DNA of 64,000 nucleotides from NCBI RefSeq assembly GCF_003429665.1, contig NZ_QUWK01000006.1:124001-188000 (forward strand), in the 5' to 3' direction. Source of the DNA: Sphaerochaeta halotolerans. GTDB lineage: Bacteria; Spirochaetota; Spirochaetia; Sphaerochaetales; Sphaerochaetaceae. Positions 27,131 through 44,702 of this stretch are shown piece after piece (the first letter of the stretch is position 1; each line of letters opens with the position of its first letter). The notes beneath the pieces are model-generated. The model did not search any database. It was not told where the DNA came from and saw nothing but the letters and a program-made list of their open reading frames with translations. The position numbers were made by a program, and so were the translations under genes.

Positions 27131-28384
27131 TCAACCTTCCTCTTTGGTTATGTCTTTCGGGCGCAGGATTAGATTCAATACCACACCGAAAATGGCTGCG
27201 AGGCCTAATCCGGAAAGGTTTACCTTTCCTAATTGGAAGGTAGCACCACCAAGGCCCAATACCAACATTGAAGCACTGATGATCAATAACTTTGGATTGG
27301 AAAGGTTGACCTTTGCATCAACCATGTTCTTGATTCCTATGGAACTGATCATTCCGAAGAGCAAGATTGAGATGCCTCCAATGACTGGTCCCGGAATGGT
27401 TCCAATGAGTGCAGTAAATTTTGGAACCAGCGAAAGCAAGATTGCAAAAAGTGCGGCAATCCGCATCACGATTGGATTGAATGCACCTGTGAGCGCAACA
27501 GCACCGGTATTTTCTGAATAGGTGGTATTTGCAGGTCCACCAATAAGGGCGGATAAGCTGGTAGCCAACCCATCTCCAATCAAGGTACGATGAATGCCGG
27601 GGTCCTTGATGAAATCTTTCCCTACAACATTCCCGATTGCCAAAACATCACCAAAGTGCTCCACCATGGTAACAATTGCTATTGGTACCATGATTGTAAT
27701 TGCACTTACCGAGAATTTCGGAAATGTGAATTTAGGGAAACCTATCCACGCCGCATCACTTACTGCAGAGAAATCCACGATACCTATAATAACAGAAACC
27801 AAATAACCCAAGATCAATGAAATCAATACCGGTAGGTTGGATACAAATTTCCACCCAAATTTTGGGAATCCTATCTTCACAAAAATGCCGATTGCAAATG
27901 TAATCAAGGCAATAAGCCAGCACCCATTCGTACCGATTGCTTCAGCAATAGCGGGTGAATTCGTTCCATTGGCATTTTGAATAGCAACCGGAGCTAGGAT
28001 AAGCCCTATCATAATAATCATGGGCCCGGTGACATGTGGTGGGAGAATCTTATGCAAGTTCTCATATTTAACAAACTTGAATATGATGGCCACCACTATA
28101 TAGAGCAACCCAGCTACGAAAATACCACCGAGTGCATAGGGCAAGCCTTCGCTTGCGCCCACAGCAACCAGTCCAGGTATAAAAGCAAAGGAGCTCCCCA
28201 AGAATACTGGAACTTTGAATTTGGTGACAACATGGAACAGCAGGGTTCCGATTCCTGCTGCGAACAAGGTCACTCCAATGTCCAATCCAGTGAGAATCGG
28301 GACCAATACAGTAGCACCGAACATGACAAATGTGTGTTGTAATCCCAATATGATGGTTTTTCCATCTACATTTTTACTTGCCAC
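27131..28384 (-). CDS. Nucleobase permease, NCS2 (uracil/xanthine) family
   Basis: A 417-residue inner membrane protein with about 14 hydrophobic segments. The NCS2 hallmarks are present: QHTFVMFGATVLVPILTG near residue 16, VFLGSSFAFIPGL (transmembrane 3), MVEHFGDVLAIGNVVGKDF (transmembrane 8 with the substrate Glu), GPANTTYSENTGAVALTG (transmembrane 10 motif) and GPVIGGISILLFGMI. The sequence is closer to UraA-type uracil carriers than to xanthine carriers by eye. The start codon is GTG, 7 nt after GGAGG. It is the last gene of the 27-40 kb operon, so it probably imports the heterocycle degraded by the other products. Confidence 0.9.
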   Translation of the reverse strand: MASKNVDGKTIILGLQHTFVMFGATVLVPILTGLDIGVTLFAAGIGTLLFHVVTKFKVPVFLGSSFAFIPGLVAVGASEGLPYALGGIFVAGLLYIVVAIIFKFVKYENLHKILPPHVTGPMIIMIGLILAPVAIQNANGTNSPAIAEAIGTNGCWLIALITFAIGIFVKIGFPKFGWKFVSNLPVLISLILGYLVSVIIGIVDFSAVSDAAWIGFPKFTFPKFSVSAITIMVPIAIVTMVEHFGDVLAIGNVVGKDFIKDPGIHRTLIGDGLATSLSALIGGPANTTYSENTGAVALTGAFNPIVMRIAALFAILLSLVPKFTALIGTIPGPVIGGISILLFGMISSIGIKNMVDAKVNLSNPKLLIISASMLVLGLGGATFQLGKVNLSGLGLAAIFGVVLNLILRPKDITKEEG

Positions 28385-28497: not shown

Positions 28498-30954
28498 TTA
28501 TGGTGAAATAGCCGCATCCGGTGTATGTCGCCGGGCTGCAGGGTCTGATCGACAGGAGCCGGTAGGCGTCTTGGTGATCCAATTGTCAATTGGATGATGA
28601 TTGTGCATCGCCCTCCATACATCCTCGGCTCGGATGGGCATATGCAGTAAATCAGCATCGACCGCAGATTGAATCGCATTTCCAAGCGCAGGTGCAACTG
28701 AAATCATGGGATGCTCGGCAACTCCCCTGGCTCCATAAGGCCCATCGATCTGGGAGCTCTCGACTGCGATGGTCTCTATTTCCATCGGCAGATCCCTAGA
28801 CGTAGGAATCTTGTTGTCAGTAAAGGAAGGATTGAGTAAGTGGCCAGCTTCATCATAAATGTACCCTTCACATACCGCTGTTCCCAATCCCTGCAACATT
28901 CCTCCGACAATCTGGCCACGCAACAACGAAGGATTGACAACTTTTCCTACATCGAAGGCTGAGGCTATCTTACGCACTGCATACTCACCGGTTACAGGAT
29001 CGACCTCACAGATGATACCATGGGCACCAAAAGTCCAATCAAGGGCGGGTTTTCCTTGCCCTGTCTGCTTGTCCAGATTGGAAAGCCCCTGGGCGATATA
29101 GCTACCGACACCAATCAAGGGACCTCCTATGCTTTCCCCATCGGGATACGCGTAACCGACTGCAATCTTTTGCCAGGAAATTGAATTTTCCTCATCATGC
29201 TTGACGTAGATACGTTCACCGTCATGTGCCAGATCCTCCACACCTGCCTTCAGAATGTGGGAAGCTACTGCGTATCCCTTCCGCAGCATATCCTCACAGG
29301 CAAGGATACAGGCATTCCCTGACATAAGAAGACCCTTTGATGCAACGGTTTGCCAGTCATAGGGATCGCTTTCGGTATCCTTTTCCAACTTGACGTACAC
29401 CTTATCGAGGTCGAACCCAAGTCGCTCTGCCACAATTTGTGCCAAAGCGGTTGTAGAGCCTTGTCCTATCTCCGTCAACCCTATATTTACAGTCACCGAA
29501 GCATCGCTGTTCATTTTGATGACCGCTGCGGTTGCCGTATTCGAGGGCATCGCGGGTGCCTTCTGCAACAATGCAATTCCTTTTCCGATTTTCTTTCCGG
29601 TTTCAGCTTCACGGCGCTTTTCTGCTGCAGTCAGTTTCCCATATTTAATTGATTTAGCAACTGCATCCATACAGGCAATGACGTTCCCCGTATGCGCTGT
29701 GATTTTTTCTCCGGTGAGTGTAATTGAGCCTGGTCTCAATGCATTCTTCTTCCTGAACTCCAGGGGGTCGATCCCGATGATTTTTGCAATCAGGTCCATA
29801 TGCCGTTCCACCCCCCAATGAAATTCGACATGCCCGAACCCCCGGTATGCAGTTCCATAGGGTTTGTTTGTATATACGGTATAGGCATCCACCCATGCAT
29901 TGGGAATCTCGTATGGCCCTGATGCACTGTACCCGGATGCTCGGGTGACATTGACCGCATAATCAGCATATGCGCCGGCATCCCAGAACATTTCCATTTT
30001 CTGCGCAAGAATCTTTCCCTCTAGAGAAACACCGGTCTTGATGCGATAGGTCAAGGCACTCCTGCATGGAAGCAGGCTGAATTCCTCTTCCCTTGTTGCT
30101 TGGAATTTCACAGGAAGTCCTCCGGCTTTTCTGGAGAGACAGGCAACCAACGGTTCCAGGTGGATACCTGCTTTTCCCCCGAACCCTCCCCCTACTGCGG
30201 GAACGATAACCCGGACCTTCCCAAGAGGCAGGGAGAAGGTATGACAAAACAGATTGCGAACGGTAAAAGGAGATTGGGCACTTGTCCAAATGGTGACGGT
30301 ATCCCTGGGCCCCCATTGCACAATTGCAACATGCGTTTCCATGGGTACATGCTGGACACTTGGGTTATCGTACTCACGTTCCACGATATATGCTGACTCC
30401 TTGAACCCTTTCTCAACATCCCCTTTTCTCAATTTTGTCCAATTGGCAATATTGGTATTGGGCACGGGAGTAAATGAAGACTCCAAATATTCATAGGAAC
30501 CCAAATCTGGGTGGACAAGCACAGCATCCTCTTTCATGGCATCCATATGGTTCAATACTGGTTGCATGACTTCATATTCCACCTCAATGAGGTCTACTGC
30601 CTTTCGTGCGATTTCCAAGGAAGTAGCGGCAACTGCTGCAACAGCTTCCCCGTAATGGCGTACTTCTCCTTTGGCCAAGATATTCTTGTCAACGATGTAC
30701 AAGCCAATTCGATACGAAAGGTCATCCCCGGTAAGCACAGCCCTCACCCCAGGGAGTGCTTCTGCCTTTGCGGTGTCAATGTGCACTATCCTTGCGCGTG
30801 CATGCGGGCTTTTTTTCACTTGCGCATACAACATGCCTGGCAGTTTCATATCACTTACATACATAGCCTTGCCGGTCAGCTTATCGCCCACATCCTTTCT
30901 CAAAGCACTCTTTCCAACATAGGTAAGCGTCTTTGGATCATTGTTCTCGTACAT
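28498..30954 (-). CDS. Xanthine dehydrogenase-type molybdenum hydroxylase, large subunit
   Basis: An 818-residue molybdopterin-binding subunit. Seen: TGKAMYVSDMKLPGMLYAQV (N-terminal a/b hammerhead domain), VPAVGGGFGGKAGIHLEP near 260 (molybdopterin glycine loop), GTAYRGFGHVEFHWGVERHM near 360, TEIGQGSTTALAQIVAERLG near 480, and GARGVAEHPMI near 750 carrying the catalytic Glu. These enzymes hydroxylate N-heterocycles such as hypoxanthine, xanthine, nicotinate or related rings. The start at 30954 follows AAGGAGGAG; it overlaps the Fe-S subunit gene by 17 nt. The C-terminus has a short basic tail rich in Pro/Arg not usual in the family. Substrate unknown. Confidence 0.9.
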   Translation of the reverse strand: MYENNDPKTLTYVGKSALRKDVGDKLTGKAMYVSDMKLPGMLYAQVKKSPHARARIVHIDTAKAEALPGVRAVLTGDDLSYRIGLYIVDKNILAKGEVRHYGEAVAAVAATSLEIARKAVDLIEVEYEVMQPVLNHMDAMKEDAVLVHPDLGSYEYLESSFTPVPNTNIANWTKLRKGDVEKGFKESAYIVEREYDNPSVQHVPMETHVAIVQWGPRDTVTIWTSAQSPFTVRNLFCHTFSLPLGKVRVIVPAVGGGFGGKAGIHLEPLVACLSRKAGGLPVKFQATREEEFSLLPCRSALTYRIKTGVSLEGKILAQKMEMFWDAGAYADYAVNVTRASGYSASGPYEIPNAWVDAYTVYTNKPYGTAYRGFGHVEFHWGVERHMDLIAKIIGIDPLEFRKKNALRPGSITLTGEKITAHTGNVIACMDAVAKSIKYGKLTAAEKRREAETGKKIGKGIALLQKAPAMPSNTATAAVIKMNSDASVTVNIGLTEIGQGSTTALAQIVAERLGFDLDKVYVKLEKDTESDPYDWQTVASKGLLMSGNACILACEDMLRKGYAVASHILKAGVEDLAHDGERIYVKHDEENSISWQKIAVGYAYPDGESIGGPLIGVGSYIAQGLSNLDKQTGQGKPALDWTFGAHGIICEVDPVTGEYAVRKIASAFDVGKVVNPSLLRGQIVGGMLQGLGTAVCEGYIYDEAGHLLNPSFTDNKIPTSRDLPMEIETIAVESSQIDGPYGARGVAEHPMISVAPALGNAIQSAVDADLLHMPIRAEDVWRAMHNHHPIDNWITKTPTGSCRSDPAARRHTPDAAISP

Positions 30955-31432
30955 AGACCAACTCCTCCTTCTCGCGATACCCACCAGTGGCATCAAGTAT
31001 GGCTTCAATAATCTGCTCATATCCCGTACACCTACAGAAATTTCCTTCCAGTCCATCCTGTATCTCTTTAACGGTAGGATGCGGTGTATGGTGGATCAGT
31101 TCACGTGCACTCATGATCATACCTGCCGTGCAAAACCCACATTGGACTGCATGGTGACGGTCAAAAGCATCCTGCAATCGACTTAAGACACCATCCTGTG
31201 CTTCCCCTTCAATGGTTTCAATGGTCCCCCCATTGGCTTCAACAGCCAGCACCATGCAGGAATTGACGGTCTTTCCGTTGAAATAGACGGTGCATGCTCC
31301 ACACTCTCCAGCGCCACATCCCTCCTTGGTACCCGTCAATCCCAAGTCATCGCGTAAGAAATGCAACAATGTCCTATGTTCCGCTACGTCCTTTTCGTAT
31401 GCGATACCATTGACTGTTACTTGGATTTTCAT
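30938..31432 (-). CDS. Molybdenum hydroxylase iron-sulfur subunit
   Basis: A 164-residue protein with both [2Fe-2S] domains of XdhC/CoxS-type subunits. The ferredoxin-like domain has EGCGAGECGACTVYFNG plus a later SCMV Cys; the all-helical domain has VQCGFCTAGMIMSA and GNFCRCTGYEQI. It passes electrons from the molybdenum centre to the FAD subunit. The start at 31432 has AGGAGGT 6 nt upstream and overlaps the FAD-subunit stop by 4 nt, so translation is coupled. Confidence 0.93.
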   Translation of the reverse strand: MKIQVTVNGIAYEKDVAEHRTLLHFLRDDLGLTGTKEGCGAGECGACTVYFNGKTVNSCMVLAVEANGGTIETIEGEAQDGVLSRLQDAFDRHHAVQCGFCTAGMIMSARELIHHTPHPTVKEIQDGLEGNFCRCTGYEQIIEAILDATGGYREKEELVYVREQ

Positions 31433-32247
31433 GCCCGCACCTCCTGGATAAGCCGCTTGGTAAATTCCGAAACCATGAATCGTCTGTACTCCTTGGTACA
31501 TCTGATATCACTGATTGGATTGATGATACGCTCAACCGCGTACAATGCATCCGGTGCCGACACATCGAGCGGCAGGTCATCCGTAATCACCGGTGTCGGT
31601 GCTGCAGAACTCACAGCAATCCGCAGGCGTCCTTCAACCATTGCTACGGCCACACCTACGATCCCGAGATCGTGTCCTTGAATCCGTTTCAATTTCCGGT
31701 AGACTCCCTTGGAATCCTTGGTATGACTAGGAATGGTGATCCCAACCACCATCTCACGTGGTTGCAAGACCGTTTGTTTCACACCAGTAAAGAATTTTTG
31801 GATAGGAATCGTTTTCCGTGTGGTGGCGGTAGCTACCAGGATACTTGCATCAAGACACAACAATGCCGGTGCCATATCCGAGCAGGGTGAAGCATTGACG
31901 ATATTTCCCACAACGGTTGCCCTATTTCTCACTTGATAAGAGGCCAGATCGCATGCACATGCCTGCAACAGGGGATAGTGCTTGGCAATCTCGGTAGATG
32001 ATATAATGTCGTTGATTGTAGTGGCCCAACCCAACTGCAGCCCTTTTTCAACATCATACGTAATTGCCCCCGCTCCAGCGATTCGCTTCACATCAATCAC
32101 CAGATCGGGTTTTAGCAAACCGTTACGGATGTTCACTAACAGATCTGTACCACCAGCAAGAAGCTTGAAGCCTCCTTTGGTTGTGTCCAACAGTGCAAGC
32201 AAATCGTCTAGCTCTGTTGGAGCCATGTAAGAGAATTGATGAATCAT
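31429..32247 (-). CDS. Molybdenum hydroxylase FAD subunit
   Basis: A 272-residue FAD-binding subunit of the XdhB/CoxM family. The FAD loop reads KLLAGGTDLLVNIRNGLLKP near residue 30 and the second is ATVVGNIVNASPCSDMAPAL near 112. The C-terminal CO-dehydrogenase flavoprotein domain follows. A variable middle loop of some xanthine dehydrogenases with an extra 4Fe-4S cluster is absent. The start at 32247 follows AGGAGGT; it overlaps the upstream DUF2877 gene end by 4 nt. It completes the three-subunit hydroxylase. Confidence 0.92.
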   Translation of the reverse strand: MIHQFSYMAPTELDDLLALLDTTKGGFKLLAGGTDLLVNIRNGLLKPDLVIDVKRIAGAGAITYDVEKGLQLGWATTINDIISSTEIAKHYPLLQACACDLASYQVRNRATVVGNIVNASPCSDMAPALLCLDASILVATATTRKTIPIQKFFTGVKQTVLQPREMVVGITIPSHTKDSKGVYRKLKRIQGHDLGIVGVAVAMVEGRLRIAVSSAAPTPVITDDLPLDVSAPDALYAVERIINPISDIRCTKEYRRFMVSEFTKRLIQEVRA

Positions 32248-33197
32248 GACACCTCCTTTCTCGCAACACAGAGAGTTGTCTGGACCAATCCATAGACCAT
32301 CCCATATGCTGCATCCAACCCTGAACTATGGCCAACTTCGGAAAGCACCGTGAGGGCCTCCCTATACTGTCTGTTATCTGCTTCCCGCGAATCCCAAGAC
32401 CGTGCCAATACAAGCAGGCTGCTGGAAAACAGCCCATCGCATGCAAGCAACAAGAACATTCTTGAAATATCGGTAGTGATGTGTTTATGGTCTTTGAGCA
32501 ACATGCTCAGGAGCGTGACTAGTTCCATTGTGAACCGGTGATAGGGAGATTCCTTGTCAGGATACATGCACCAGGAGAGCAACAAACCACAGAGGAAATC
32601 ATCCCCGGAGGGAGTGCTTCCCGGTCCAAACCCTACTAACGATTGTATGGATTCTATTGACTGGGAGATATCTTGCTTTCTGATATGGTGTGAGAGGTCT
32701 TCTATGGTTGCATAAAATCGAGGGGCAAACAAAGGTTCAATTTCTGTTGATCGGGTAGTATGTATATACTGAAGTGATGTGTTTTTCTTCTTTTGAAAAG
32801 AATCCAGTATTAGTTCTCTTCTCAGGAGGATGGCCTGAGGAAGGGCTGAGACGTTTGGAGCACTCTCGTCGGATGGAGGAACCCGTTTTGCTCCCAAAAA
32901 TGAGACCCATAGGCCGCAATCAAAGAAAAGGCCATCCTCATGCACACAAGCCATCGATCCAACACAAATCTCTCGTGCCTTGAGGAGAAAACCCCCCTCT
33001 GGAGCGTTGAGTAGGAGTGAAGCAGGATGGAATGCATTTTCCTTCGTTACAATTGAGTGGAGCCTACCATACGAATCCCGTAGGTTTATTGTTGATGCAT
33101 ATGTAGAGTGCACTACCAGCATAACTTGAGGCTGAGGGAACTGAGAACCGATTTTTTCTACTATCCCCAAACAGGAGCTATGCCATTTGGTGTGCAT
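32244..33197 (-). CDS. DUF2877 protein, AllH-like carbamoyltransferase subunit
   Basis: A 317-residue protein of the DUF2877 family. The diagnostic segment LVGFGPGSTPSGDDFLCGLL is seen near residue 195. E. coli AllH (YlbF), reported as one of three subunits (AllF/AllG/AllH) of oxamate carbamoyltransferase, belongs to this family; it has about 270 residues, so this protein is somewhat longer. The other two subunits are encoded as a single fused gene at the head of the same operon. The start at 33197 has AAGGAGG 9 nt upstream and overlaps the GntR gene end by 20 nt. Function is inferred from family and context; the carbamoyl acceptor or donor may not be oxamate here. Confidence 0.75.
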   Translation of the reverse strand: MHTKWHSSCLGIVEKIGSQFPQPQVMLVVHSTYASTINLRDSYGRLHSIVTKENAFHPASLLLNAPEGGFLLKAREICVGSMACVHEDGLFFDCGLWVSFLGAKRVPPSDESAPNVSALPQAILLRRELILDSFQKKKNTSLQYIHTTRSTEIEPLFAPRFYATIEDLSHHIRKQDISQSIESIQSLVGFGPGSTPSGDDFLCGLLLSWCMYPDKESPYHRFTMELVTLLSMLLKDHKHITTDISRMFLLLACDGLFSSSLLVLARSWDSREADNRQYREALTVLSEVGHSSGLDAAYGMVYGLVQTTLCVARKEVS

Positions 33198-33846
33198 GAA
33201 ACAATGCCTCCTTGATGGCAGAGTCAACTTTTTCCTTTCCCCATAGAATATTGCGAGTAAGGATAGCAGAAGCCCTTTCGTAATCATTCTGGTGCAATGC
33301 TTCCAGCAACGCAAGATGGTCGGTACATGTTTGTTTCAACCGTGCTTGGTCAGTGATATCACTGAGTCGGACAAAGTGGATTCTCAGATCGATTTCATGA
33401 AGGAATTGTTTGATCACCTGATTCCCGGCTGCATCCGCCAAGGCTGCATGGAAATGCTCATCTGCTTGCACCGACTGTTCTGCCCCTGCTCGCAAATCAG
33501 AGAGTAACACCTCCCATTCGTTCTTTAATGTATGATATATGGTCTCATCCAAACCTTTTTCGCAAATGTCCTTGACCACGGCGAGCTCCAATACCACCCG
33601 AGTATCATATAGTTCATTGATTTCCTGGATATCAATTCTCCGTACCGAATATCCCTTGTGTTGTTCCTTTAGTACAAGTTTCTCAGAGACCAAGGCGTTT
33701 AACGCCTCGCGCACCGGAGATCTGCTTACATTGAATTCAGAGCAGATCATCTCTTCTGTCAGTCTGTAGCCAGGAGGATACGACCAGTTTATAATTCGCG
33801 TAGAAATGGTGTTGTAGATAATAGAACTGCGAGCATCGCTACTCAT
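33178..33846 (-). CDS. GntR-family regulator (FCD subgroup)
   Basis: A 222-residue regulator. The N-terminal winged helix has YRLTEEMICSEFNVSRSPVR followed by EALNALVSEKLV, the GntR signature. The all-helical C-terminal FCD ligand domain has the metal-ligand pattern DEHFHAALADAAGN and HLALLEAL with conserved Asp/His residues. Such proteins sense small carboxylates. The start at 33846 has GGAGG 6 nt upstream. It lies inside the catabolic operon, so it probably controls the operon and itself, perhaps through the palindrome at 40245-40260, which contains TTGTATAC as FCD operators often do. Confidence 0.9.
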   Translation of the reverse strand: MSSDARSSIIYNTISTRIINWSYPPGYRLTEEMICSEFNVSRSPVREALNALVSEKLVLKEQHKGYSVRRIDIQEINELYDTRVVLELAVVKDICEKGLDETIYHTLKNEWEVLLSDLRAGAEQSVQADEHFHAALADAAGNQVIKQFLHEIDLRIHFVRLSDITDQARLKQTCTDHLALLEALHQNDYERASAILTRNILWGKEKVDSAIKEALFHAHQMA

Positions 33847-33866
33847 TCGCATCCTCCCCCATTCGA

Positions 33867-34256
33867 TTACTCAGCCTCTTTAAACACAAAGACGTTCACC
33901 GGTTTCCCCGGTCTCTCATCCGATGAAACTACTGTGGCAACCAGAGGCATTCCCGTTACCGGGTTGTCTGTCTCCAGACGCCCCGATGCACGCAGCCCGT
34001 TGTCGAACTGAACGATGCCAAACAGTAAATATTTTTTGTTGTATCCCTCCGGTAAGTTCCACAACCGGGTCCAGGTCAACAATGTGCAGGGACCTTTCAA
34101 GGCAAAGGTTTCCCAATGCGCGTCACTCACGGGATCTCTCCTGGAATGACATTTCCCACAAATCATCGGCGCTGGATAATACAGCGTACCACATTTCTCA
34201 CATTTATAGGCCATGATTTCCGGTTCCTTGAAATCGTACATGCTGAAATCAATCAT
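33867..34256 (-). CDS. DUF35 OB-fold protein with zinc ribbon
   Basis: A 129-residue DUF35 protein. The N-terminal zinc ribbon is MAYKCEKCGTLYYPAPMICG followed by KCHSR, two CxxC knuckles; the C-terminal OB fold has the family's GIVQFDNGLRASGRL and VVSSDERPGKPVNVFVFK. DUF35 proteins form complexes with thiolase-fold enzymes: archaeal acetoacetyl-CoA thiolase/HMG-CoA synthase, and steroid side-chain aldolases such as Ltp2-ChsH2. The thiolase-fold gene lies 13 nt upstream in the same operon, so the pair should act together. The start at 34256 is chosen over a TTG one codon earlier. Confidence 0.85.
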   Translation of the reverse strand: MIDFSMYDFKEPEIMAYKCEKCGTLYYPAPMICGKCHSRRDPVSDAHWETFALKGPCTLLTWTRLWNLPEGYNKKYLLFGIVQFDNGLRASGRLETDNPVTGMPLVATVVSSDERPGKPVNVFVFKEAE

Positions 34257-34268
34257 CAAGTCACCTCC

Positions 34269-35465
34269 CTACTCTTTCGCAAATATCATTGCCACGACAT
34301 TATTGCCAAACCCACCGAAGTTGACCGCCATACCATACTTTGGGTCACGAACCTGTCTGCCTTCTTCCGCTTCTCCTCGTAGTTGCCGAACCAATTCAAC
34401 TGCCTGGGAGACTCCTGTCGCCCCAACCGGATGACCTTTCGATTTCAGCCCACCGGACGTATTGATCGGCAATCGTCCATCAATTTCGGTTTCCCCCTTG
34501 CGAACGGCAAGAAAACTCTTTCCCCGCTCAAAGAAACCTACTTCCTCACTGATAGCCAATTCGAGGATGGAGAACGCATCGTGCAATTCAGCAAATGAGA
34601 TGTCCTTAGGAGTGAGCCCTGCCATTGCATAGGCCTTTTCCCCGGCAATACGTACAGCATCGAGCTTAAGTGGATCTTTTCGGTTGTGGACGCAATGGGT
34701 GTCGGTCGCGCTTGCAATACCTGCTATCCGAATTGGTTTCTTGGAAAAGAGTTTTGCCTTGGGAGAATCCATATTCACCAACAGGAGCGCAGCTGCACCA
34801 TCACTTACCGGACAGGTGGAATACATACGCAACGGTTCGGCAACATACGTATTCACCACATTGGCTTCCGGCCCATCTGCAATAGCCTCGATGGTACACT
34901 CTGCCTGGATATGTGCATACTTGTTCTTTGCCCCGTTGGCATGGTTCTTCACTGCCAGCAGTGCAAGGTCTCTCTCTGTCAAACCGTATTTTTCCATATA
35001 CATACGGGTGAACATCCCCCCAAATCCAGGGAGCGTGAGGCCCATGTCATACTCGGCTTGAGGATGAAGCATGGTCGCAACATACTCGGTACCTGTCCAG
35101 CCGGTTACCTTGCGCATGACCTCTCCTGCAATGACCAGTACAATATCTGCCATTCCTGAGGCTACAGCCATGTATCCAATCTTTATTGCACTTGCCCCGG
35201 AAGCAGGGCCATTTTCCACCAATTCGGCAGGAACAGGCTCCATATCCATCTTGCTGATTACCGATGATGCCACTGCACTTTGGTGGCAGAACAACCCGGA
35301 AGCCATATTCCCGACAATCACCTGGTCGATTTCCTTCCGCTTCTCGAGAAATCCGGCATCTTCCAAAGCATCTGTGGCGGCATACGCCATGATGTCGCCA
35401 AGATCAAATTCTGAAAGATTTCCAAATTTCGTGTGACCAATACCTACAACACCTACTTTGGCCAT
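34269..35465 (-). CDS. Thiolase-fold protein lacking the catalytic cysteines (SCP-x/aldolase-like)
   Basis: A 398-residue thiolase-fold protein of the SCP-x/lipid-transfer group. Retained: DIVLVIAGEVM, the HDAF motif near residue 290 and SGGLKSKGHPVGATGVSQ near 340. The usual nucleophile position (A-C-A-S-G) reads NGPASGAS, with Pro87 in place of Cys, and HDCF, which carries the second Cys in SCP-x thiolases, reads HDAF. Standard thiolysis is therefore unlikely. Together with the adjacent DUF35 gene this resembles steroid retro-aldolase complexes (Ltp2 type), in which a thiolase fold splits a beta-hydroxyacyl-CoA. The enzyme may perform aldol cleavage of a CoA ester from the heterocycle. The residues are seen; the reaction is inference. 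Confidence 0.8.
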   Translation of the reverse strand: MAKVGVVGIGHTKFGNLSEFDLGDIMAYAATDALEDAGFLEKRKEIDQVIVGNMASGLFCHQSAVASSVISKMDMEPVPAELVENGPASGASAIKIGYMAVASGMADIVLVIAGEVMRKVTGWTGTEYVATMLHPQAEYDMGLTLPGFGGMFTRMYMEKYGLTERDLALLAVKNHANGAKNKYAHIQAECTIEAIADGPEANVVNTYVAEPLRMYSTCPVSDGAAALLLVNMDSPKAKLFSKKPIRIAGIASATDTHCVHNRKDPLKLDAVRIAGEKAYAMAGLTPKDISFAELHDAFSILELAISEEVGFFERGKSFLAVRKGETEIDGRLPINTSGGLKSKGHPVGATGVSQAVELVRQLRGEAEEGRQVRDPKYGMAVNFGGFGNNVVAMIFAKE

Positions 35466-35468
35466 GGT

Positions 35469-36155
35469 TTACCTCTTGAATCCCGGAATCTGCGGATACT
35501 CGCTTGGCATAATGAGTTTTGCTGATGTTTTGAGATCCGCATCTAGAACCGGTCTGGTTCCCGTGCATTTCACATCACGTACTGCTTCCCATAAAGGGCG
35601 TGTAAGGACATAAGTGGGGACTCCACCCAGCTCATGCCTTACTTCTGGGAATTGGGATGATCTGTCTTCCAGTTCATATTCGATCATCCAACGCTTGAAT
35701 CCATTGGGACTCTCCGCAACAATATACACCTCCTCCTCCCCAAGGATGTCAAGGTGATGTTCCATTTTTGCTGCGAACAATTGAGCTCCAACCCTAAGCC
35801 CGCGTTTGATGGTCATCGTATGCAAGCTCATGCCTAATTTGGGCGTGACATGCCTACTGGTTACAATTCCTGCAATCACCCCATTGATTGTACCCACGAG
35901 TACAAACTCATTTGCCACCCGGTATCGAAACCAACCCAGAATCTCTGAATACATACGCGCTGCAACAATGTCATAGAAGTCTGCAGGAACGCCCAAAAGA
36001 GGATAAATCGTGCCAAGCAGGGCTCCTGCTTCCTCACGTTTTGCTTCGCGCACCACCATTTTTTCGCCAGAGGCCAATGTAATCACTTTGGGTGGATACG
36101 GCTTCAAGGGAATCTCAGGGGGCCTGAGTTTTTGTTCCATAGCATCCATAGCCAT
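35469..36155 (-). CDS. GNAT-like acyltransferase of unknown role
   Basis: A 228-residue protein not firmly recognised. An N-terminal Pro-rich stretch (RPPEIPLKPYPPKV) leads to a GNAT-like fold: VVREAKREEAGALLGTIYPL (beta1-alpha1), EFVLVGTINGVIAGIVTS (beta2-beta3), MSLHTMTIKRGLRVGAQLFA (beta4 and the CoA-pyrophosphate region, without a clean Q/RxxGxG/A), and VYIVAESPNGFKRWMIEYEL. The tail has no known domain. The start at 36155 follows AAGGAG by 7 nt. It lies 3 nt before the thiolase-fold gene, so it may supply or modify an acyl-CoA in the same pathway, or be a non-catalytic partner. Confidence 0.55.
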   Translation of the reverse strand: MAMDAMEQKLRPPEIPLKPYPPKVITLASGEKMVVREAKREEAGALLGTIYPLLGVPADFYDIVAARMYSEILGWFRYRVANEFVLVGTINGVIAGIVTSRHVTPKLGMSLHTMTIKRGLRVGAQLFAAKMEHHLDILGEEEVYIVAESPNGFKRWMIEYELEDRSSQFPEVRHELGGVPTYVLTRPLWEAVRDVKCTGTRPVLDADLKTSAKLIMPSEYPQIPGFKR

Positions 36156-36187: not shown

Positions 36188-37057
36188 CTACCTACGGGCT
36201 TCCTCGTGTAACCATGCATTTCTTGCACCGGCTATATCACCAAACCTGGTCAACTCGGCTTTCGCTTTTTTCGCCATGAGTTGCTCATACCTGTCGTCAT
36301 CCACATGGGCCACAATCCTGGCAATGGAGGACTCTCCATCGACAAATCTCCAAGGATAACAGCCGATGACCGCCCTTTGGTTCAACAAGAGGTCAATATC
36401 ACCTCCAACACATTCGGCATGGATGATACCATGGTCAAACATCTCGATATGCATCAGTTGATATTTGTCGTCTGAGAAAACCTCTTCCAGTTTCTTCCCA
36501 TATTTCTTTTGGAAGTGGGCATCACATTCCTTGGCTTGCCTCGGCATCCAATCACGAATCTTTGTATTCATAGGATGGTCTGCACTGCCACAATCGACAC
36601 CAATCCAACGAAGCTTCTTCTTTTTTGCCCATTCTGCGAACTCCCTGTCCGGTCCAGGGTGTTGAATCATATATTTGACTTCATTGCCGGTCGGCTGGTC
36701 CCAGCCATAATGATGGAAACCGGTATGGATGAGCAAAATATCTCCCTCTCGAACTTCAACACGATCCTCCACCATCTTGGAGGTATAGATGTCGTAGTCC
36801 GAGCAAACATCTGACAAATCAACGATAGCACCCTCGTGCACAAGGAAATCCATATCCAGTTGAGCAATATCTTTTCCTGGGGTATAGAAGTGAATTTCAC
36901 CATCCAGATGTGTACCGACATGGTTCGAGTGTGTCACTACCTGTCCATTGGCACCGTTGGGTGCAAGACGTTTGAAATATTGCACCTGCAATGGGATGTA
37001 GGTGGGCCATGGTGGTGTTCCAATTCCCAAAGGAATAGTCAAATCAATTACTTTCAT
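36188..37057 (-). CDS. Cyclase/kynurenine formamidase-like metal hydrolase (PF04199)
   Basis: A 289-residue member of the PF04199 'cyclase' family, which includes kynurenine formamidase and isatin hydrolase. The metal motif HSNHVGTHLDGEIHF (HxGTHxD...H) is near residue 45, with LLIHTGFHHYGWD and IGVDCGSADHP further on. Compared with the classic HxGTHxDxPxH the Pro is replaced. These enzymes hydrolyse amide or lactam bonds, so a ring-opening step after hydroxylation fits. It lies 54 nt after the FdrA fusion gene in the catabolic operon. The start at 37057 has GGAGG 5 nt upstream. Confidence 0.85.
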   Translation of the reverse strand: MKVIDLTIPLGIGTPPWPTYIPLQVQYFKRLAPNGANGQVVTHSNHVGTHLDGEIHFYTPGKDIAQLDMDFLVHEGAIVDLSDVCSDYDIYTSKMVEDRVEVREGDILLIHTGFHHYGWDQPTGNEVKYMIQHPGPDREFAEWAKKKKLRWIGVDCGSADHPMNTKIRDWMPRQAKECDAHFQKKYGKKLEEVFSDDKYQLMHIEMFDHGIIHAECVGGDIDLLLNQRAVIGCYPWRFVDGESSIARIVAHVDDDRYEQLMAKKAKAELTRFGDIAGARNAWLHEEARR

Positions 37058-37111: not shown

Positions 37112-40100
37112 TCATGAAAATGCTTCAGCACAGGCCAATAACGCATCGCGGAAACAGTTCTCCGGGGGTTTTACCAAACCTGCACCAACCATACCAACGC
37201 CAGGTTTCTTGTGGGCAATGCCAGTATTGATGACAGGAAGCACCCCACTCTCAACAACCAGGCGGACATCAATACCGGTGGGGGTTCCTCTGAAGTCCAA
37301 AGCAGGAATCTTGTAATGGCTGTGTTCAGCCAGTGTTATTCCGTACATCCGCTTTGTGAAGGCTATCGCATCAGCTGGGGTTCCTCCGACGAATTTAACT
37401 ATTGCAGGAGCAGCAGCCATGGCAAATCCACCGATTCCAGAGGTCTCTGTTATGACCGAATCGCCAATATCGGGAGCACTGTCCTCAGCGGAAAATCCGG
37501 GAAGATACAACCCATCCACCATCCCCGCAGGACCGGTAAACCAACGGCCTGGCAATCCAGAGATTTGGATACCAAATTCAGTACCATTGCGAGCCATGGC
37601 AGTTATCATCGTACTTCCAGGAATACCCACAGCTGGATCAAGTGCACTTTTTGCAGCGGGCATCGACAAGTTTAGGAAGAAATGGTCATTGCCATGCATA
37701 AAAGTGAGTATTCTTGCTATGGCTTCAGGATCTTCATCCAGTAGCACGAGATCAGAGGCAAGTTCTCGAATCATCAGTGATGTCCCAGCCCTGTTCCTAT
37801 TATGGCATTCATCCCCCATCTGTAATGCTTGTACAATGATTCCACGCAAATCAATTGCCCCATGTCTCTGTATTGCTTTGTGCAAAATAGGGGCCAACTC
37901 ACTTGCCATCCAATGCAAACGACTAAGGACCTCCTCGGAAAATGCCCCATAGCGCAACACTTTTCCCAGTCCTTCATTCAGGGTAGCAAATGCGTAGTTT
38001 CCAAATATTTCATTCTTGATGATCCAGACCGGCATACTTGCAGTCATGATACCAGCCATGGGCCCAACACAGGCATGATGGTGGCATGGCTCAAATTGTA
38101 TCTTCCCGGAAGCTGCAAGCTGTTCTGCCTCCTCTGGATTGTGAGCCTTGCCCTCATACATAAGTGCACCGATGACAGCTCCACGCATAGGACCACACAT
38201 ACGGCTCCAGCTAACAGGAGGCCCCGCATGCAACACCAGATTATCATGCATGCCGGGAACTACATCCCGAGCAATACCAATCCCCTCAAGCATGGGTTTC
38301 CCCTGCATGAGACGTTCCACAGCCTTTCGATTTGCTTCTTCAACATCGATTGTGGTCATTCCAGAGAGCATTTCCAGTGCTCTGATGGCTTGTACATCCC
38401 CACCAGCAGGTGGTCTCCAATCGAGATGGACTGAGTTCTCCAAATTCTGGGAGAACGCCTCCAGTCCAAGATTTACAGCAATCGGACCGTCTTCAAACAA
38501 TGCAAGGATCTTCTCGGTATCAGGGATGGTGGGTGAAGACAAGGGGTGAGTATTCGATGGTATAGGTTGCACATCCCTGGGGTTCAATTTCTGACTCTCC
38601 GGCAGTTCAAAACCCTGTTTCTTTGCAAGCATGCGAAGCGCCAACATGGCAGCCTGATAGTTTGAAGGCATGACAATGATGCCCGCCTCCTCGAGAATGG
38701 CTCTTTGCCTCTCGTAGTGCTGCGGGTCTTTTTCTGTTCCGGTAACCGAAGCAATGACAGAGAGATACCCACCCCGTTTCTTGGCTTCTTCCTTGGCACG
38801 AACCAGCGAGGAGACCATTGCTCCAGCCGGATTGTCATGTGAACCATAGCCAAGGACACAATCCACCAATACAACTGCGATACTCCCATCGGAAATTTCA
38901 GCTTCTATACGTTCTGTTCTAGTACTTGGATCAATCATGGGATGAGGGCGACCAACGGTAAAAACATCATCCCCCAGATCAATGATTGTGTGTTGTACCG
39001 AGATATGGGGGTCAGGTGGGATGAAGTTCGGATCCGTCTGGTTGTTCGACCAGATACCTCCCATCGGCCCATGCAAAGCTAACCAGGTTTCATCTGCCAG
39101 AGTACCTCCTGTGTAGTATCCTCTGAGAAACTGCTGATCAGGACGCATCCCCTTCAATTCCCGTTCCACGATTGCATCGATACTTTTATGATCCAAATCA
39201 AAAGGCCAGGCATCATGATACTCCTTTGGTGCTACAGGACTTCCAGCCAATGTACTTGCCAGCCTTGCAGTCTCCTCCAGATTGTGTGCCCACCTGATAC
39301 GCTCAGGAAGCATGAATTCTGCCTCGTCAGATCCTATGAAATGAACCACTGCTGGTTTCCCACTCTCATGCAATGCCATGATTACATCATCGATGACTTC
39401 CTTTGCTGGGGGCTTTGAAATGACCACAATTACGCTTGTTTCCTTGTCTTTCCCCAGAGCAGCTATCCCCATTCGCATGGTCAGGCCAGCGACGGATGGG
39501 TTTTTCAAATCACGTCCCCCTGTACCAATGGCGTGGCTTACCCCTGACCCGTACCGATCGAGCAAGCTCGAGACTTCCTGCAATCCTGTACCTGATGCGG
39601 CAACAATGCCAACAGGTCCCTGCGCAACCACATTGGCAAAACAGAGCGGTTTGCCGGCAATTATCGCGGTACCGCAATCCGGTCCCATAAGGAGGAGCCC
39701 TTTTTCCCATGCCATTTTCTTAAGGGCAATTTCATCTTCTAGTGAAACGTTGTCGGAGAACAACATGACATGGAGGTTGTTTTTCAGTGCTTTTCTCGCT
39801 TCATATGCCGCATATTGGCCAGGCAGTGAAATGATGGCAATATTACGGTCGGGATACTGCTGGCATGCCGCTTGTATGGTTTTGGGTTGTTCAACGGTTT
39901 TGTCTGCTGCATCCGGAGCTGCTTTCCTTTCCAGAAGTGAAAAAGCATAAGACTCCATTGCATCAAGATCATCCTCATCTGTGCAATCCAAAGCTATCAG
40001 GAGGTCCATCGGCGTTGCACTGGAGAGTTCCTTTTCTGAAAACCCCTGATCGATGAGGAGCTCTACATTCACGGCAGTACCCATGGCAACTGTCGCTGTT

Positions 40101-40192
40101 TCTATTTCGGGTCTTTCCTGTAATTCTTTGCTCATGAGCATGAGGAATACAGAGTCGACATACACATCTTTTCGTATAACCACCCTTTTCAT
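37112..40192 (-). CDS. FdrA (AllF)-AllG fusion, acyl-CoA synthetase-like/DUF1116
   Basis: A 1026-residue protein. Residues 1 to about 550 match FdrA: an N-terminal ACT-like strand region, a CoA-binding segment (NIAIISLPGQYAAYEARKAL), GLLLMGPDCGTAIIAGKPL, VGIVAASGTGLQEVSSLLDR, and a ligase-like part (AVVLVDCVLGYGSHDNPAGA). Residues from about 560 to the end are the DUF1116 family of AllG/YlbE (MCGPMRGAVIGALMYEG, PCHHHACVGPMAGIMTASMP, GMPVGIPGSTMITAMARNGT-like text, SGIGGFAMAAAPAIVKFVGG). In E. coli these are separate genes for oxamate carbamoyltransferase subunits of 555 and 419 residues. First gene of the 11-gene operon; start at 40192 with GGAGG upstream. Fusion is seen; carbamoyl transfer is inferred from family. 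Confidence 0.85.
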   Translation of the reverse strand: MKRVVIRKDVYVDSVFLMLMSKELQERPEIETATVAMGTAVNVELLIDQGFSEKELSSATPMDLLIALDCTDEDDLDAMESYAFSLLERKAAPDAADKTVEQPKTIQAACQQYPDRNIAIISLPGQYAAYEARKALKNNLHVMLFSDNVSLEDEIALKKMAWEKGLLLMGPDCGTAIIAGKPLCFANVVAQGPVGIVAASGTGLQEVSSLLDRYGSGVSHAIGTGGRDLKNPSVAGLTMRMGIAALGKDKETSVIVVISKPPAKEVIDDVIMALHESGKPAVVHFIGSDEAEFMLPERIRWAHNLEETARLASTLAGSPVAPKEYHDAWPFDLDHKSIDAIVERELKGMRPDQQFLRGYYTGGTLADETWLALHGPMGGIWSNNQTDPNFIPPDPHISVQHTIIDLGDDVFTVGRPHPMIDPSTRTERIEAEISDGSIAVVLVDCVLGYGSHDNPAGAMVSSLVRAKEEAKKRGGYLSVIASVTGTEKDPQHYERQRAILEEAGIIVMPSNYQAAMLALRMLAKKQGFELPESQKLNPRDVQPIPSNTHPLSSPTIPDTEKILALFEDGPIAVNLGLEAFSQNLENSVHLDWRPPAGGDVQAIRALEMLSGMTTIDVEEANRKAVERLMQGKPMLEGIGIARDVVPGMHDNLVLHAGPPVSWSRMCGPMRGAVIGALMYEGKAHNPEEAEQLAASGKIQFEPCHHHACVGPMAGIMTASMPVWIIKNEIFGNYAFATLNEGLGKVLRYGAFSEEVLSRLHWMASELAPILHKAIQRHGAIDLRGIIVQALQMGDECHNRNRAGTSLMIRELASDLVLLDEDPEAIARILTFMHGNDHFFLNLSMPAAKSALDPAVGIPGSTMITAMARNGTEFGIQISGLPGRWFTGPAGMVDGLYLPGFSAEDSAPDIGDSVITETSGIGGFAMAAAPAIVKFVGGTPADAIAFTKRMYGITLAEHSHYKIPALDFRGTPTGIDVRLVVESGVLPVINTGIAHKKPGVGMVGAGLVKPPENCFRDALLACAEAFS

Positions 40193-40632: not shown

Positions 40633-41973
40633 ATGCAATTTACAGATTCAGAACAGCAGATAGTAGACCGTTTCGATACAGATGTCAGCAGAGAACGCTG
40701 GCGCGACTGGAAGTGGCAGCTGAAGCATTGCATCAAGGACGTTGCAACGTTTGAGAAACTGCTTGACTACACGTTCCCTGAAGCGAAACGGAAGGACATT
40801 GAGGCAACCATTGCCAAATTCCCAATGGCCATCACACCCTACTACCTCTCACTCATTGACACTGATAATGTAGAAAATGATCCCATTTTCAAGCAGTCGT
40901 TCCCAGATGTACGGGAATTGAATATTGCTGAGTACGATATGGAAGATCCCTTGCATGAGGATGCAGACAGCCCTGTAACTGGCATCACCCACCGCTATCC
41001 GGACCGTGTGCTCTTCTTGATCAGCAACACGTGTGCAATGTATTGCCGTCACTGTACCAGGAAGCGCAAGGTCGGGGATGTGGACAATATTCCTAACCGT
41101 GAACAGATCAAGGCAGGCCTTGATTATATCAGGGACACCCCGCAGGTTCGCGATGTCCTGCTCAGTGGTGGAGATCCCTTCATGCTCCCAGACGCATATC
41201 TCGAATGGATTCTCTCAGAGCTGAGGGCAATACCCCATGTGGAAATCATTAGGATCGGAACAAGAATTCCTGTGGTACTCCCCTACCGGGTGGACGAGAA
41301 ACTGGTGAATATGCTGAAGAAGTATCATCCACTGTGGATCAACACCCAGTTCAACCACCCTCGCGAGCTTACCAAATCCTCGCGCAAGGCAGTGGAAATG
41401 CTCGCTGACGCAGGAATCCCCATGGGCAACCAATCCGTCCTGCTCAATGATGTGAATGACTGTCCCCGTATCATGAAGAAACTTGTTCAGAAACTGACCT
41501 ATAGCAGAGTACGTCCCTACTACCTCTACCAGTGTGACCTCTCCGAAGGGCTCACCCACTTCAGGACCTCAGTTGGCAAGGGTATAGAGATCATGGAAAG
41601 CCTTAGAGGCCATACCAGTGGCTTCTGTGTTCCCACCTATGTGATAGATGCCCCAGGCGGCGGTGGAAAGATTCCCATCATGCCCAACTATATTCTCTCC
41701 TGGTCCACAAACAAGGTGATTCTCCGCAACTTCGAGGGTGTTATCACCACCTACAGGGAACCGGACAGCTACACATCCGTGATGTGCGATCGTAATTGTG
41801 AGAAATGCACACTTGAGTTGAAACTGAATGACTCTGATGAGTTCAAGGCTCATGGTATTGAGAAACTTTTGGCTGACTATGACGATAGCTACTCCTTGAC
41901 GCCAGAGGGTCATGTAAATATAAGCGAGGCGTATGCCGAGGCAAATGCAGCCAGGAGCGCTAAGCATGGTTGA
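40633..41973 (+). CDS. ablA: Lysine 2,3-aminomutase
   Basis: A 446-residue radical SAM/PLP enzyme that converts L-alpha-lysine to L-beta-lysine. The radical SAM cluster motif [12 protein letters not shown] is near residue 135, the SAM glycine motif [12 protein letters not shown] near 180, the PLP lysine in [14 protein letters not shown] near 345, and the C-terminal zinc Cys cluster as [13 protein letters not shown] near 385. Length matches KamA/AblA (about 415-475). The start at 40633 has AGGA 7 nt upstream. It overlaps ablB by 8 nt; together they make N-epsilon-acetyl-beta-lysine, a compatible solute in methanogens and some bacteria. Lysine fermentation is the alternative role, but no other genes for it are here. 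Confidence 0.95.
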
Positions 41974-42805
41974 TACAAACGATACAATGGTGCGCTTGGA
42001 TGGAGCGATTGTCCAGCATGGCAGAAGCAATGACCGGGTTTACTTGATGGACATTGGTTCTGCTGATGCTTCTCTTCTCGTTCCCAAATTGTTGGATTTG
42101 GCGAACGAGAGAGGCTATGGGAAGATCTTTACCAAGATTCCCCGTTCAGTTTCCGCTCCCTTTCTGGAAGCTGGGTTCCTGGTTGAGGCAACTGCAGGCA
42201 AGCTGTTCCATGGGCAGGAGGAAGGTCTCTTCTTGGGAAAGTTTCTCGATGAGAAACGCCAGGATGAGGTTCTAGCCTCTGAGTATGAAAGAGTTCAGAG
42301 GTTGGCTTTTTCGACAAACCATGCAATGGCAAGACAGGAAGACACTGTTCGTTTGTGTTCGAAGCAAGATGCTGCATCAATGGCAAAACTCTATGCCAAG
42401 GTGTTTGACTCCTACCCCTTCCCCATCGACGACCCTTCATTCATCATGAAGACCATGGACGAAGGCACGGTCTATGCGGGAATCGAAGAGGATGGTGCGT
42501 TGGTTGCGCTGGCTTCAGGTGAGTGCAGTTTCAAGGAAGATACACGCTATTCTGAAATGACGGATTTTGCGACCTTGCCCGAGAAAAGAGGGAATGGATA
42601 TGCTCTCCTACTCCTTGCCTTTCTGGAAGAGGAGCTCAAAAAAAGAGGCATCCTCACCGCCTATACCATAGCGAGGGCAATCTCACCTGGGATGAACATC
42701 ACCTTTGCCAAGGCTGGCTACGCCTATGGTGGCAGATTACACAACAATACCAACATTGCAGGTAATATCGAGAGTATGAATGTGTGGTATAAAAGCTTGG
42801 TTTGA
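41966..42805 (+). CDS. ablB: Beta-lysine N6-acetyltransferase
   Basis: A 279-residue GNAT enzyme that acetylates beta-lysine. The C-terminal half has the acetyl-CoA fold: [20 protein letters not shown], the [20 protein letters not shown] signature with the RGNGYA pyrophosphate loop near residue 205, then [20 protein letters not shown] ending in the aromatic-rich [11 protein letters not shown]. The N-terminal half ([30 protein letters not shown]) is typical of AblB and unlike ordinary GNATs. The ATG at 41966 lies within the end of ablA and has CAGGAG 8 nt before it. Transcription ends at the hairpin at 42995. Confidence 0.92.
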
Positions 42806-43198: not shown

Positions 43199-44443
43199 CT
43201 ACAGATTATGCCAGTACTCCTTGGGAACTGGATTGGCACCCTCCCAGATAATCTGGCGGAAGTGAATGGGATCGGTATTCCCTTCTGTGTTAATGAAGAG
43301 CACCTGGCTCTCCTTATCCAAGCCCAGTGCTTCCTTCAACTCCTTGAGACCAGGATACTGCATGATGGAGGCAAATGCCCCAAGAGTTACTGCCCCACTC
43401 TCCCCACTGATGATGAGGGGGTCGCCATTGAGCGGGGTTGCATACATTCTCATACCCTTTGCAGCAATATAGTCGGGCACCTTGATGAAGGCATCAGCAT
43501 CCTCGTTGAGGATTTCCCATGCGAGGGGGCTCGGGTCTCCGCAAGCAAGGCCGGCCATGATGGTATCGAGGGATCCTCCAACAGAGTGAGGCTTCCCATC
43601 TCCAGCCAAGGCACTCTCATAGATACAGGAAGCCTTATCCGGCTCGACAACGATGCATTTCGGGGCATCCTGGCCAAAGAGCGCATGATAGAACCCGATC
43701 ACTGAGGCTGCCAAGGCACCAACACCAGCCTGGATGAAAAGATGGGTCGGCTTCACAATGCCAACCCCGGAGAACTGCTCCTGGGTTTCTGCCAGCAAAG
43801 TAAGGTATCCTTGCATAATCCATGTGGGAATCTCGGTGTAGTTGTCCCAGCTGGTGTCACTGATGATGATCCAACCATGCTTCTCTGCATCAGCAGCAAC
43901 CTGACGAACAGCGTCATCGTAGTTTCCATCCACGATTACTACCTTTGCTCCATTGCTCTTGATTGCATCGATACGACGAACACTGGTTTCAGAGTGAACA
44001 TAGATGACACATTTGAAGCCCAGGCGTTTTGCCGCCCAAGCGATACCTCTTCCATGATTACCGTCAGTGGCACTGGCGAAGGTAAGATCACCAACCTTGT
44101 CCTTGACTTCCTGACTGGCAAGGTACTCAAAGGAGGTGTCAGAACCGGAAAGACCAAGCAGTTTCTGGAGATATCGGTACAGGGCAAATGAACCACCCAA
44201 TACTTTGAAGCTGTTCAACTGCAAACGGCTGGACTCATCCTTGGTCCAGATTCCGCCTACACCGAACATCGCCGCCAGATTGGGCAAGCCTTGAAGGGGG
44301 CTCATCCTATAGCCAGGGATCTGCCTGTGGAATCGTCGGGAGCACTGGGCTTGTTTCATGGAAAAGAGTTCCTCAGCAAGCTTTGTATTCTTCTGGTGGG
44401 GCTCACGAACTATGTACGATATTTCCTGATGTGTACCGGTCAT
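43199..44443 (-). CDS. dpaL: Diaminopropionate ammonia-lyase
   Basis: A 414-residue fold-type II PLP enzyme that splits 2,3-diaminopropionate to pyruvate and ammonia. Seen: GYRMSPLQGLPNLAAMFGVG near residue 45, WTKDESSRLQLNSFKVLGGS with the PLP lysine near 80, SATDGNHGRGIAWAAKRLG near 130, IIISDTSWDNYTEIPTWIMQ and FIQAGVGALAASVIGFYHAL (phosphate-binding glycine region), and GLACGDPSPLAWEIL. These match E. coli YgeX/DpaL of about 398 residues. The start at 44443 follows GGAGG by 5 nt; an upstream ATG four codons away lacks spacing. Convergent with ablB; no clear operon partner. Confidence 0.93.
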   Translation of the reverse strand: MTGTHQEISYIVREPHQKNTKLAEELFSMKQAQCSRRFHRQIPGYRMSPLQGLPNLAAMFGVGGIWTKDESSRLQLNSFKVLGGSFALYRYLQKLLGLSGSDTSFEYLASQEVKDKVGDLTFASATDGNHGRGIAWAAKRLGFKCVIYVHSETSVRRIDAIKSNGAKVVIVDGNYDDAVRQVAADAEKHGWIIISDTSWDNYTEIPTWIMQGYLTLLAETQEQFSGVGIVKPTHLFIQAGVGALAASVIGFYHALFGQDAPKCIVVEPDKASCIYESALAGDGKPHSVGGSLDTIMAGLACGDPSPLAWEILNEDADAFIKVPDYIAAKGMRMYATPLNGDPLIISGESGAVTLGAFASIMQYPGLKELKEALGLDKESQVLFINTEGNTDPIHFRQIIWEGANPVPKEYWHNL

Positions 44444-44702
44444 ATCATCCTCCAATATGGTAATTACTTATATACTTCAATTATTCTAATTAAACTACTA
44501 ATATCAGCAATTATTCAAGTACTCATTGCTTATATGACCAATTAATCCTAAATAGATTAAGTTCATGATTGTTTCATCATTGCATCCGTGACAAACCATC
44601 CTTACAGGTACTTTCCTCTGGAAGGTTTTGGTCGCATGGTATGCTGAATACATCATACGGACATTGTAGGGACAGCTTAGCTGGTTCCACAAGGGTTAGA
44701 CC

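Follow-up and report, generated by a model that had tools for sequence, protein, structure and literature searches.

Among the solved thiolases, the archaeal acetoacetyl-CoA thiolase of the thiolase/DUF35/HMG-CoA synthase complex (PDB 6et9 and 6esq) and the Pyrococcus thiolase 7yvy keep the nucleophilic cysteine. The steroid aldolases Ltp2-ChsH2 (6ok1) and Sal-Shy combine a cysteine-free thiolase fold with a DUF35 protein, and PMC12329534 gives their catalytic residues as Tyr294 (in a YDHF motif) and Tyr344 in TcLtp2 and as the pair Tyr302 and Cys304 in CtSal. The same paper describes TbSLP, a thiolase-like protein with a weak and very slow malonyl-CoA decarboxylation. In ketosynthase domains inside polyketide synthases, the KSS variants (Cys to Ser) keep decarboxylation and the KSQ variants (Cys to Gln) do nothing else (PMC12843615). 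Two further cysteine-free proteins, ST0096 of Sulfolobus tokodaii (4yzo) and a homologue encoded on a Halorussus vallis plasmid, have serine at the nucleophile position. No paper devoted to ST0096 was found among the open-licence PMC literature. On the side of nucleobase catabolism, E. coli oxamic transcarbamylase consists of FdrA, AllG and AllH (AllFGH), links oxalurate and phosphate to oxamate and carbamoyl phosphate, and is encoded in the same operon as a carbamate kinase, AllK (PMC11326118).

The window analysed here is a 64,000-nucleotide stretch of Sphaerochaeta halotolerans DNA, in which the genes of Table 1 follow one another on the minus strand in the order listed, from the FdrA-AllG fusion to the permease. 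The thiolase-fold protein shares its fold, the HDxF histidine and the GHxxGATG loop with 6et9, 6esq and 7yvy, but has lost their nucleophilic cysteine. As in the 6et9 complex, one partner is a DUF35 protein; the other partner there is HMG-CoA synthase, whereas here it is a GNAT-fold protein. Like Ltp2 and Sal, the window protein is cysteine-free and paired with DUF35, but the catalytic Tyr pair (or Tyr/Cys) of these aldolases is absent from it. It is also cysteine-free like ST0096 and the Halorussus homologue, with which the family has a GN(N/S) C-terminal motif in common, although these two have Ser and not Pro at the nucleophile position; the Halorussus protein likewise has DUF35 next door, but no listed GNAT. 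The replaced cysteine recalls KSQ, KSS and TbSLP, in all of which decarboxylation is retained, and the catalytic His pair is kept in KSQ and KSS just as His295 and His345 are kept beside Pro87. This is an analogy and not membership: the window protein is free-standing and belongs to the thiolase family, and TbSLP differs in its very slow reaction and in its other motifs. Finally, FdrA, AllG and AllH subunits with a carbamate kinase in the operon or genome are found both in E. coli and here, but here they are joined to a cyclase, a molybdenum hydroxylase and a GNAT-thiolase-DUF35 triad rather than to allantoin genes, and the substrate proposed below is ureidomalonate.

Table 1. Genes of the minus-strand operon, with positions in the window
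Feature	Position	Strand	Remarks
FdrA-AllG fusion, subunits of oxamate-carbamoyltransferase-like enzyme	37112..40192	-	profile matches
PF04199 cyclase-family (kynurenine formamidase-like) metal hydrolase	36188..37057	-	HxGTHxD motif; proposed ring or amide hydrolase
GNAT-fold protein, 228 aa, third triad member	35469..36155	-	no Pfam/NCBIfam match; fold by model
Thiolase-fold protein without catalytic Cys, 398 aa	34269..35465	-	Pro87 (nucleophile position), His295 (HDAF), His345 (GHPVGATG)
DUF35/ChsH2-type zinc ribbon	33867..34256	-	ATG start; TTG one codon earlier also possible
GntR/FCD-family regulator	33178..33852	-	domain match
AllH-like subunit	32244..33314	-	true start uncertain, open frame overlaps regulator
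FAD subunit, xanthine-dehydrogenase-family molybdenum hydroxylase	31429..32247	-	domain matches
2Fe-2S subunit of molybdenum hydroxylase	30938..31501	-	true start probably internal
Mo-binding subunit of molybdenum hydroxylase	28498..31056	-	domain matches and PDB comparison
NCS2 nucleobase permease	27131..28384	-	closest to uracil permease models

A conserved Cys-to-Pro family with a thiolase-type site

The translation of 34269-35465 contains AELVENGPASGASAIK, FAELHDAFSI and NTSGGLKSKGHPVGATG, and its motifs read ENGPASGAS, ELHDAFSI and GHPVGATG, so that the nucleophilic Cys of thiolases corresponds to Pro87. The protein matches Thiolase_N and Thiolase_C_1 (PF00108, PF22691) and is the single match to the cysteine-free thiolase in the window's genome (2.93 Mb, 99.99% complete). 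A contig scan of genomes gave 43 loci, 31 of which (L031-L061, 54-95% identity) form one Pro family with host labels from spirochaetes, Verrucomicrobia, Lentisphaerae, Riflebacteria, Hyphomicrobiales, UBP18 and others. NGPASG is present in all 31 and absent from the remaining 12. The proline is also kept in family loci beyond these (L007, L012, L017, L020 and L024 were left out of the Pro count), and L011 reads HDPF where other members have HDAF. Pro87 is neither chance nor a sequencing error. The initial annotation, which had described a thiolase-fold protein with Pro87 in place of the catalytic cysteine, HDAF at the second Cys site and a retained GHPxGATG, was thus accurate on each of these residues. 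HDAF alone is not diagnostic, however, because 7yvy keeps its Cys and yet reads HDAF, and because 5 of the 19 outgroup rows have Ala at the same position.

In 33 aligned family sequences, P87, H295, D296, F298, N335, H345 and P346 occur without exception, and the Cys-to-Pro change together with both His was found in 18/18 aligned family rows. Alignment with the outgroup (19 rows, including the two Ser rows from L023 and L027) further identified E81, H257, H260, N388 and N389 as family-specific invariants. The protein therefore has the fold and the His residues of a thiolase, with an invariant Pro87 where the nucleophilic Cys is absent. A decaying pseudo-enzyme was considered and rejected, the site being intact in the 31 named loci. 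Separately, L089 (G194:C1:658001-678000), from a spirochaete with a complete genome, holds the whole operon as a broken copy, in which pieces of FdrA-AllG, the cyclase, the thiolase (117 residues), the carbamate kinase and the molybdenum subunits remain.

The initial annotation had proposed a steroid-type aldolase and had staked this on the aldolase tyrosines. Because no Ltp2 scored above the cut-off in the control genomes, 6ok1 was brought in by way of Ltp2-like genes on plasmids; its sequence comes from aligning it by phmmer with one plasmid homologue, and a close Ltp2 homologue served as the alignment bridge. Tyr294 and Tyr344 of TcLtp2 then align with His295 and His345 of the query, and Tyr302 and Cys304 of CtSal (YDCY motif) with His295 and Ala297. 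At the HDAF-motif position, 18/18 family rows have His295, whereas the 6ok1, pIBU and R. pyridinivorans rows have Tyr. Since the equivalents of both tyrosines are thiolase-type histidines, the active site is a thiolase site minus its nucleophile and not an aldolase site.

The tree points in the same direction. It holds 45 rows, including the 18 sampled Pro rows and three Ltp2-like rows, with Sal itself not among them. The Pro rows form one clade (support 100/100), which adjoins the two Ser-bearing cysteine-free proteins from Halorussus and ST0096 (support of the joint branch 100/99; the tree program warned that pairing Halorussus with ST0096 unites long branches), and the three Ltp2-like rows lie apart with a support of 100/98. 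By this alignment-based tree, the clade closest to the query is archaeal and thiolase-like, not Ltp2-like, and an Ltp2/Sal-type aldolase was rejected on the tyrosine positions and the separate Ltp2 branch. The Cys-to-Pro family is clean and conserved, and its nucleophile was lost separately from that of the Ltp2 steroid aldolases. The AlphaFold model (single chain, pLDDT 89.1) has the archaeal thiolase 6et9 as its best match, with a TM of 0.93, and matches 6ok1 more weakly, with a TM of 0.82. A second thiolase group with Ser at the nucleophile position was seen in L023 and L027 (G176, G152), where it branches with Pyrococcus 7yvy. These genes were set aside as relatives of the operon, as their branch is separate and the stretches around them (L140, L141) are without any other operon gene.

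The GNAT-thiolase-DUF35 triad and its replacement

On either side of the thiolase gene, the same two neighbours recur. The open reading frame at 33867-34259 matches PF12172 (35 bits), a ChsH2/DUF35-type zinc ribbon; its start is likely the ATG at 34256, as in relatives, which leaves a gap of 12 bp to the thiolase gene. A DUF35 homologue lies downstream of the thiolase in 30/31 loci, the exception (L059) ending at a contig edge; the DUF35 partner of the earlier description is confirmed as a conserved neighbour. Upstream, a homologue of the 35469-36155 product was found in 31/31 loci. This product has no Pfam or NCBIfam match and no credible PDB relative by sequence; its model (again a single chain, pLDDT 90.9) gave 110 PDB matches at E <= 0.001, the best 50 of which mostly carry acetyltransferase or GNAT names (TMq 0.38-0.51), and its predicted fold is GNAT. 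GNAT, thiolase and DUF35 are thus a conserved triad, and the three may form a complex.

The surrounding genes point to nucleobase catabolism. FdrA, AllG and AllH are encoded together (PRK06091 544.6 bits, cut-off 433; PF06545 328.4 bits; PF11392 89.3 bits). A carbamate kinase lies within 5 of the 31 triad operons (L036, L037, L040, L049, where it sits between thiolase and DUF35, and L054), and in the window's genome one above the cut-off is encoded elsewhere. The earlier reading stands in its missing cysteine, its DUF35 partner and its heterocycle-catabolic setting and falls in its aldolase; it had also overlooked the constant GNAT-fold partner and the operon of FdrA/AllG/AllH, cyclase and molybdenum hydroxylase.

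In a sample of 392 genomes drawn from the phylum, AllG was found in 32 and the Pro-type thiolase in 14 (in G194 only as decayed remains), and all 14 Pro-family genomes have AllG (Fisher p 2.6e-17, relatedness ignored). Where the triad locus itself is without AllG, AllG was found elsewhere in 10/10 genomes. In five Verrucomicrobia-type genomes (L101, L104-L107), the second site holds FdrA, AllG and the cyclase together, the cyclase being cut by a contig edge in two of them.

AllG without the triad occurs in 18 genomes, 14 loci of which were inspected (L113-L126; not G051, G061, G088 and G334). In 8 of the 14 (L113, L114, L117, L118, L119, L121, L122 and L125), a CaiB-type CoA-transferase and an amidase stand downstream of the cyclase in place of the triad. 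L115 has only an amidase of 34%, L120 has neither gene, L123 and L124 have no cyclase match, and in L116 and L126 the contig ends before the expected place of the triad or CaiB. Conversely, CaiB has no match in the 31 triad loci, and neither the CaiB nor the amidase of the sister operons was found anywhere in the window's genome (G000) or in its relatives G357, G386 and G327. Judging by this replacement, the triad probably takes over the CoA-transferase step and, in genomes of the Sphaerochaeta type, perhaps the amidase step as well. It does not substitute fully for an amidase in every case, because amidase matches occur in L087 and L088 (49%) and a nitrilase-family gene is divergent from the triad in 5 Verrucomicrobia-type loci; L051 also has an amidase match (33%), and the window's genome has only a remote nitrilase-family gene. 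The thiolases of the CaiB-type genomes (35% identical) were considered as the missing step and dropped, since the five aligned all keep Cys.

The base and the proposed route

Several neighbours bear on the base. The window permease scores 356.9 bits with the uracil permease model (cut-off 477) versus 235.2 with that of xanthine permease. In L059, genes resembling uridine phosphorylase (277.8 bits, cut-off 280.3) and cytosine deaminase lie around the cyclase, and in L115, FdrA-AllG-cyclase stands beside a reductive pyrimidine cluster with dihydropyrimidinase (503 bits, cut-off 393), hydantoinase/carbamoylase, MMSDH, an aminotransferase and an NCS1 permease. The Mo-binding subunit has 4-hydroxybenzoyl-CoA reductase as its nearest PDB relative, which does not identify a uracil enzyme, and barbiturase (PF09663) had no match in 30 genomes and none in the controls either, which makes its absence uninformative. 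Based on this gene content, the substrate of the operon is most likely a pyrimidine, with uracil itself not proven. Among the open-licence PMC titles listed, at most 20 at a time, none was found that joins FdrA/AllG with barbiturate, ureidomalonate or malonamate, and nothing on point for Sphaerochaeta and pyrimidines.

Two clusters have related content. L059:1309-7173 groups the cyclase and formyl-THF deformylase genes with others that resemble aldehyde:ferredoxin oxidoreductase, cytosine deaminase and uridine phosphorylase; its tungsten-type enzyme may take the place of the molybdenum hydroxylase. L137 (NZ_CP100002.1:15000-50000), on the Halorussus vallis plasmid, carries the Ser-type cysteine-free thiolase with DUF35, a molybdenum hydroxylase, a cyclase (46% identical), two NCS2-type permeases, CaiB and a dihydropyrimidinase-like gene, with no FdrA/AllG match in the cluster; this could be the pathway in an aerobic form.

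The oxidative pyrimidine route leads from uracil via barbiturate and ureidomalonate. The observed conservation, clade, synteny, co-occurrence and replacement by CoA-transferase and amidase make a strong context, from which we infer the substrate, the chemical steps and the complex as follows. The UraA-like permease would import the base, the molybdenum enzyme would hydroxylate it (uracil to barbiturate), and the cyclase-family hydrolase would open the ring to ureidomalonate. By analogy with E. coli AllFGH, FdrA/AllG/AllH would cleave this acylurea with phosphate into carbamoyl phosphate, convertible to ATP by carbamate kinase, and malonamate. If the acylurea is ureidomalonate and the product malonamate, the amidase and CaiB together would produce malonyl-CoA, and the expected product of the triad is then malonyl-CoA as well, or acetyl-CoA if the thiolase acts as a decarboxylase. 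In the latter case, malonamate (or, in the presence of an amidase, malonate) would be converted to a CoA thioester and on to acetyl-CoA and CO2. The GNAT-fold protein may handle acyl transfer to CoA and DUF35 may complete the CoA site, while the thiolase, which has lost its nucleophile but kept Asn335 and both His, would stabilise the enolate of the thioester and set CO2 free in the manner of a KSQ ketosynthase; E81, H257, H260, N388 and N389 may shape the new site. By analogy, the Ser and Pro branches resemble the KSS/KSQ pair, although Pro is without the side-chain hydrogen bond that Gln can give, which counts against a KSQ-like role. That the cysteine-free subunit belongs to a three-protein unit of an anaerobic nucleobase-catabolic operon, and that this triad turns a C3 remnant into acetyl-CoA with the thiolase as a KSQ-like decarboxylase, is the reading that we tentatively favour, at somewhat less than even confidence. 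The wider proposal is possible but more doubtful: spirochaetes and members of other phyla would ferment pyrimidines anaerobically by the oxidative route, gaining ATP from carbamoyl phosphate through acylurea phosphorolysis, and the triad would convert malonamate directly to acetyl-CoA, CO2 and ammonia, conserving the energy of decarboxylation as a thioester.

Some GNAT-fold enzymes are malonyl-CoA decarboxylases, and the thiolase subunit could be a non-catalytic, CoA-binding scaffold beside a GNAT-fold protein that does the chemistry alone. The loss of both the nucleophile and the second Cys and the constancy and strong conservation of the GNAT-fold protein speak for this, but the invariant His pair, Asn335 and GHP loop and the further family-specific residues argue for a working active site, and we regard a mere scaffold as unlikely. 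In another version, the acylurea would be oxalurate derived from another heterocycle, FdrA/AllG/AllH would form oxamate, the step for which they are named (PMC11326118), and the triad, or amidase and CaiB, would handle oxamate/oxalate as oxalyl-CoA. This rival has to be taken seriously, since CoA:oxalate CoA-transferase is the best match of the CaiB replacement (400 bits, cut-off 522), and this match and the formyl-THF deformylase of L059 could count against the malonate route and point to oxamate/oxalyl chemistry instead. The UraA-like permease, the uridine phosphorylase-like and cytosine-deaminase-like genes of L059 and the reductive pyrimidine cluster beside one FdrA-AllG-cyclase set favour a pyrimidine, however, and oxalyl-CoA offers no alpha carbon for an enolate, so that a thiolase-fold catalyst would make little sense; we regard the oxalurate version as unlikely. 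Thiolase-like C-C cleavage of a base-derived beta-ketoacyl-CoA, with CoA attacking directly and without an acyl-enzyme, is improbable: the solved structures nearest to the protein, in sequence as in fold, belong to acetoacetyl-CoA thiolases and thiolase-like proteins, but the operon has nothing that forms a beta-ketoacyl-CoA, and replacement by CoA-transferase and amidase does not fit a thiolysis step. Most improbable is an Ltp2/Sal-like retro-aldolase with a hydroxyacyl-CoA from the heterocycle as its substrate; this reading has the cysteine-free fold, the DUF35 partner and the 6ok1 fold match on its side but, besides the His/His and His/Ala replacements, the separate Ltp2-like branch and the better fit of 6et9, would find no hydratase or dehydrogenase in the operon to make its beta-hydroxyacyl-CoA.

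Should the decarboxylase reading be true, the triad would represent a new type of malonate-level decarboxylase, and yet another chemistry would have arisen independently from a Cys-less thiolase; if the route is right, anaerobes would gain ATP and acetyl-CoA from pyrimidine rings, and FdrA/AllG/AllH would serve a second purpose apart from allantoin degradation. Both the fold and the type of partner were already known, whereas the combination, the Pro family and the pathway were not found in print among open-licence PMC papers; a Pro-thiolase family with a constant GNAT-fold partner is hereby tied to a testable pathway.

Some minor observations concern neighbouring genes. At L123:6723-12120, a gene resembling biuret amidohydrolase (272.8 bits, cut-off 370) comes before a more distant set of AllH, FdrA, AllG and carbamate kinase, which suggests that the carbamoyltransferase family may also serve biuret or allophanate. 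In the window, a lysine-2,3-aminomutase-like gene overlaps a GNAT gene at 40633-42805 (plus strand), a pair which we take to resemble that for the osmolyte N-acetyl-beta-lysine, and near the nucleobase operon, at 43199-44455 (minus strand), lies a PLP-dependent lyase, presumably a diaminopropionate ammonia-lyase.
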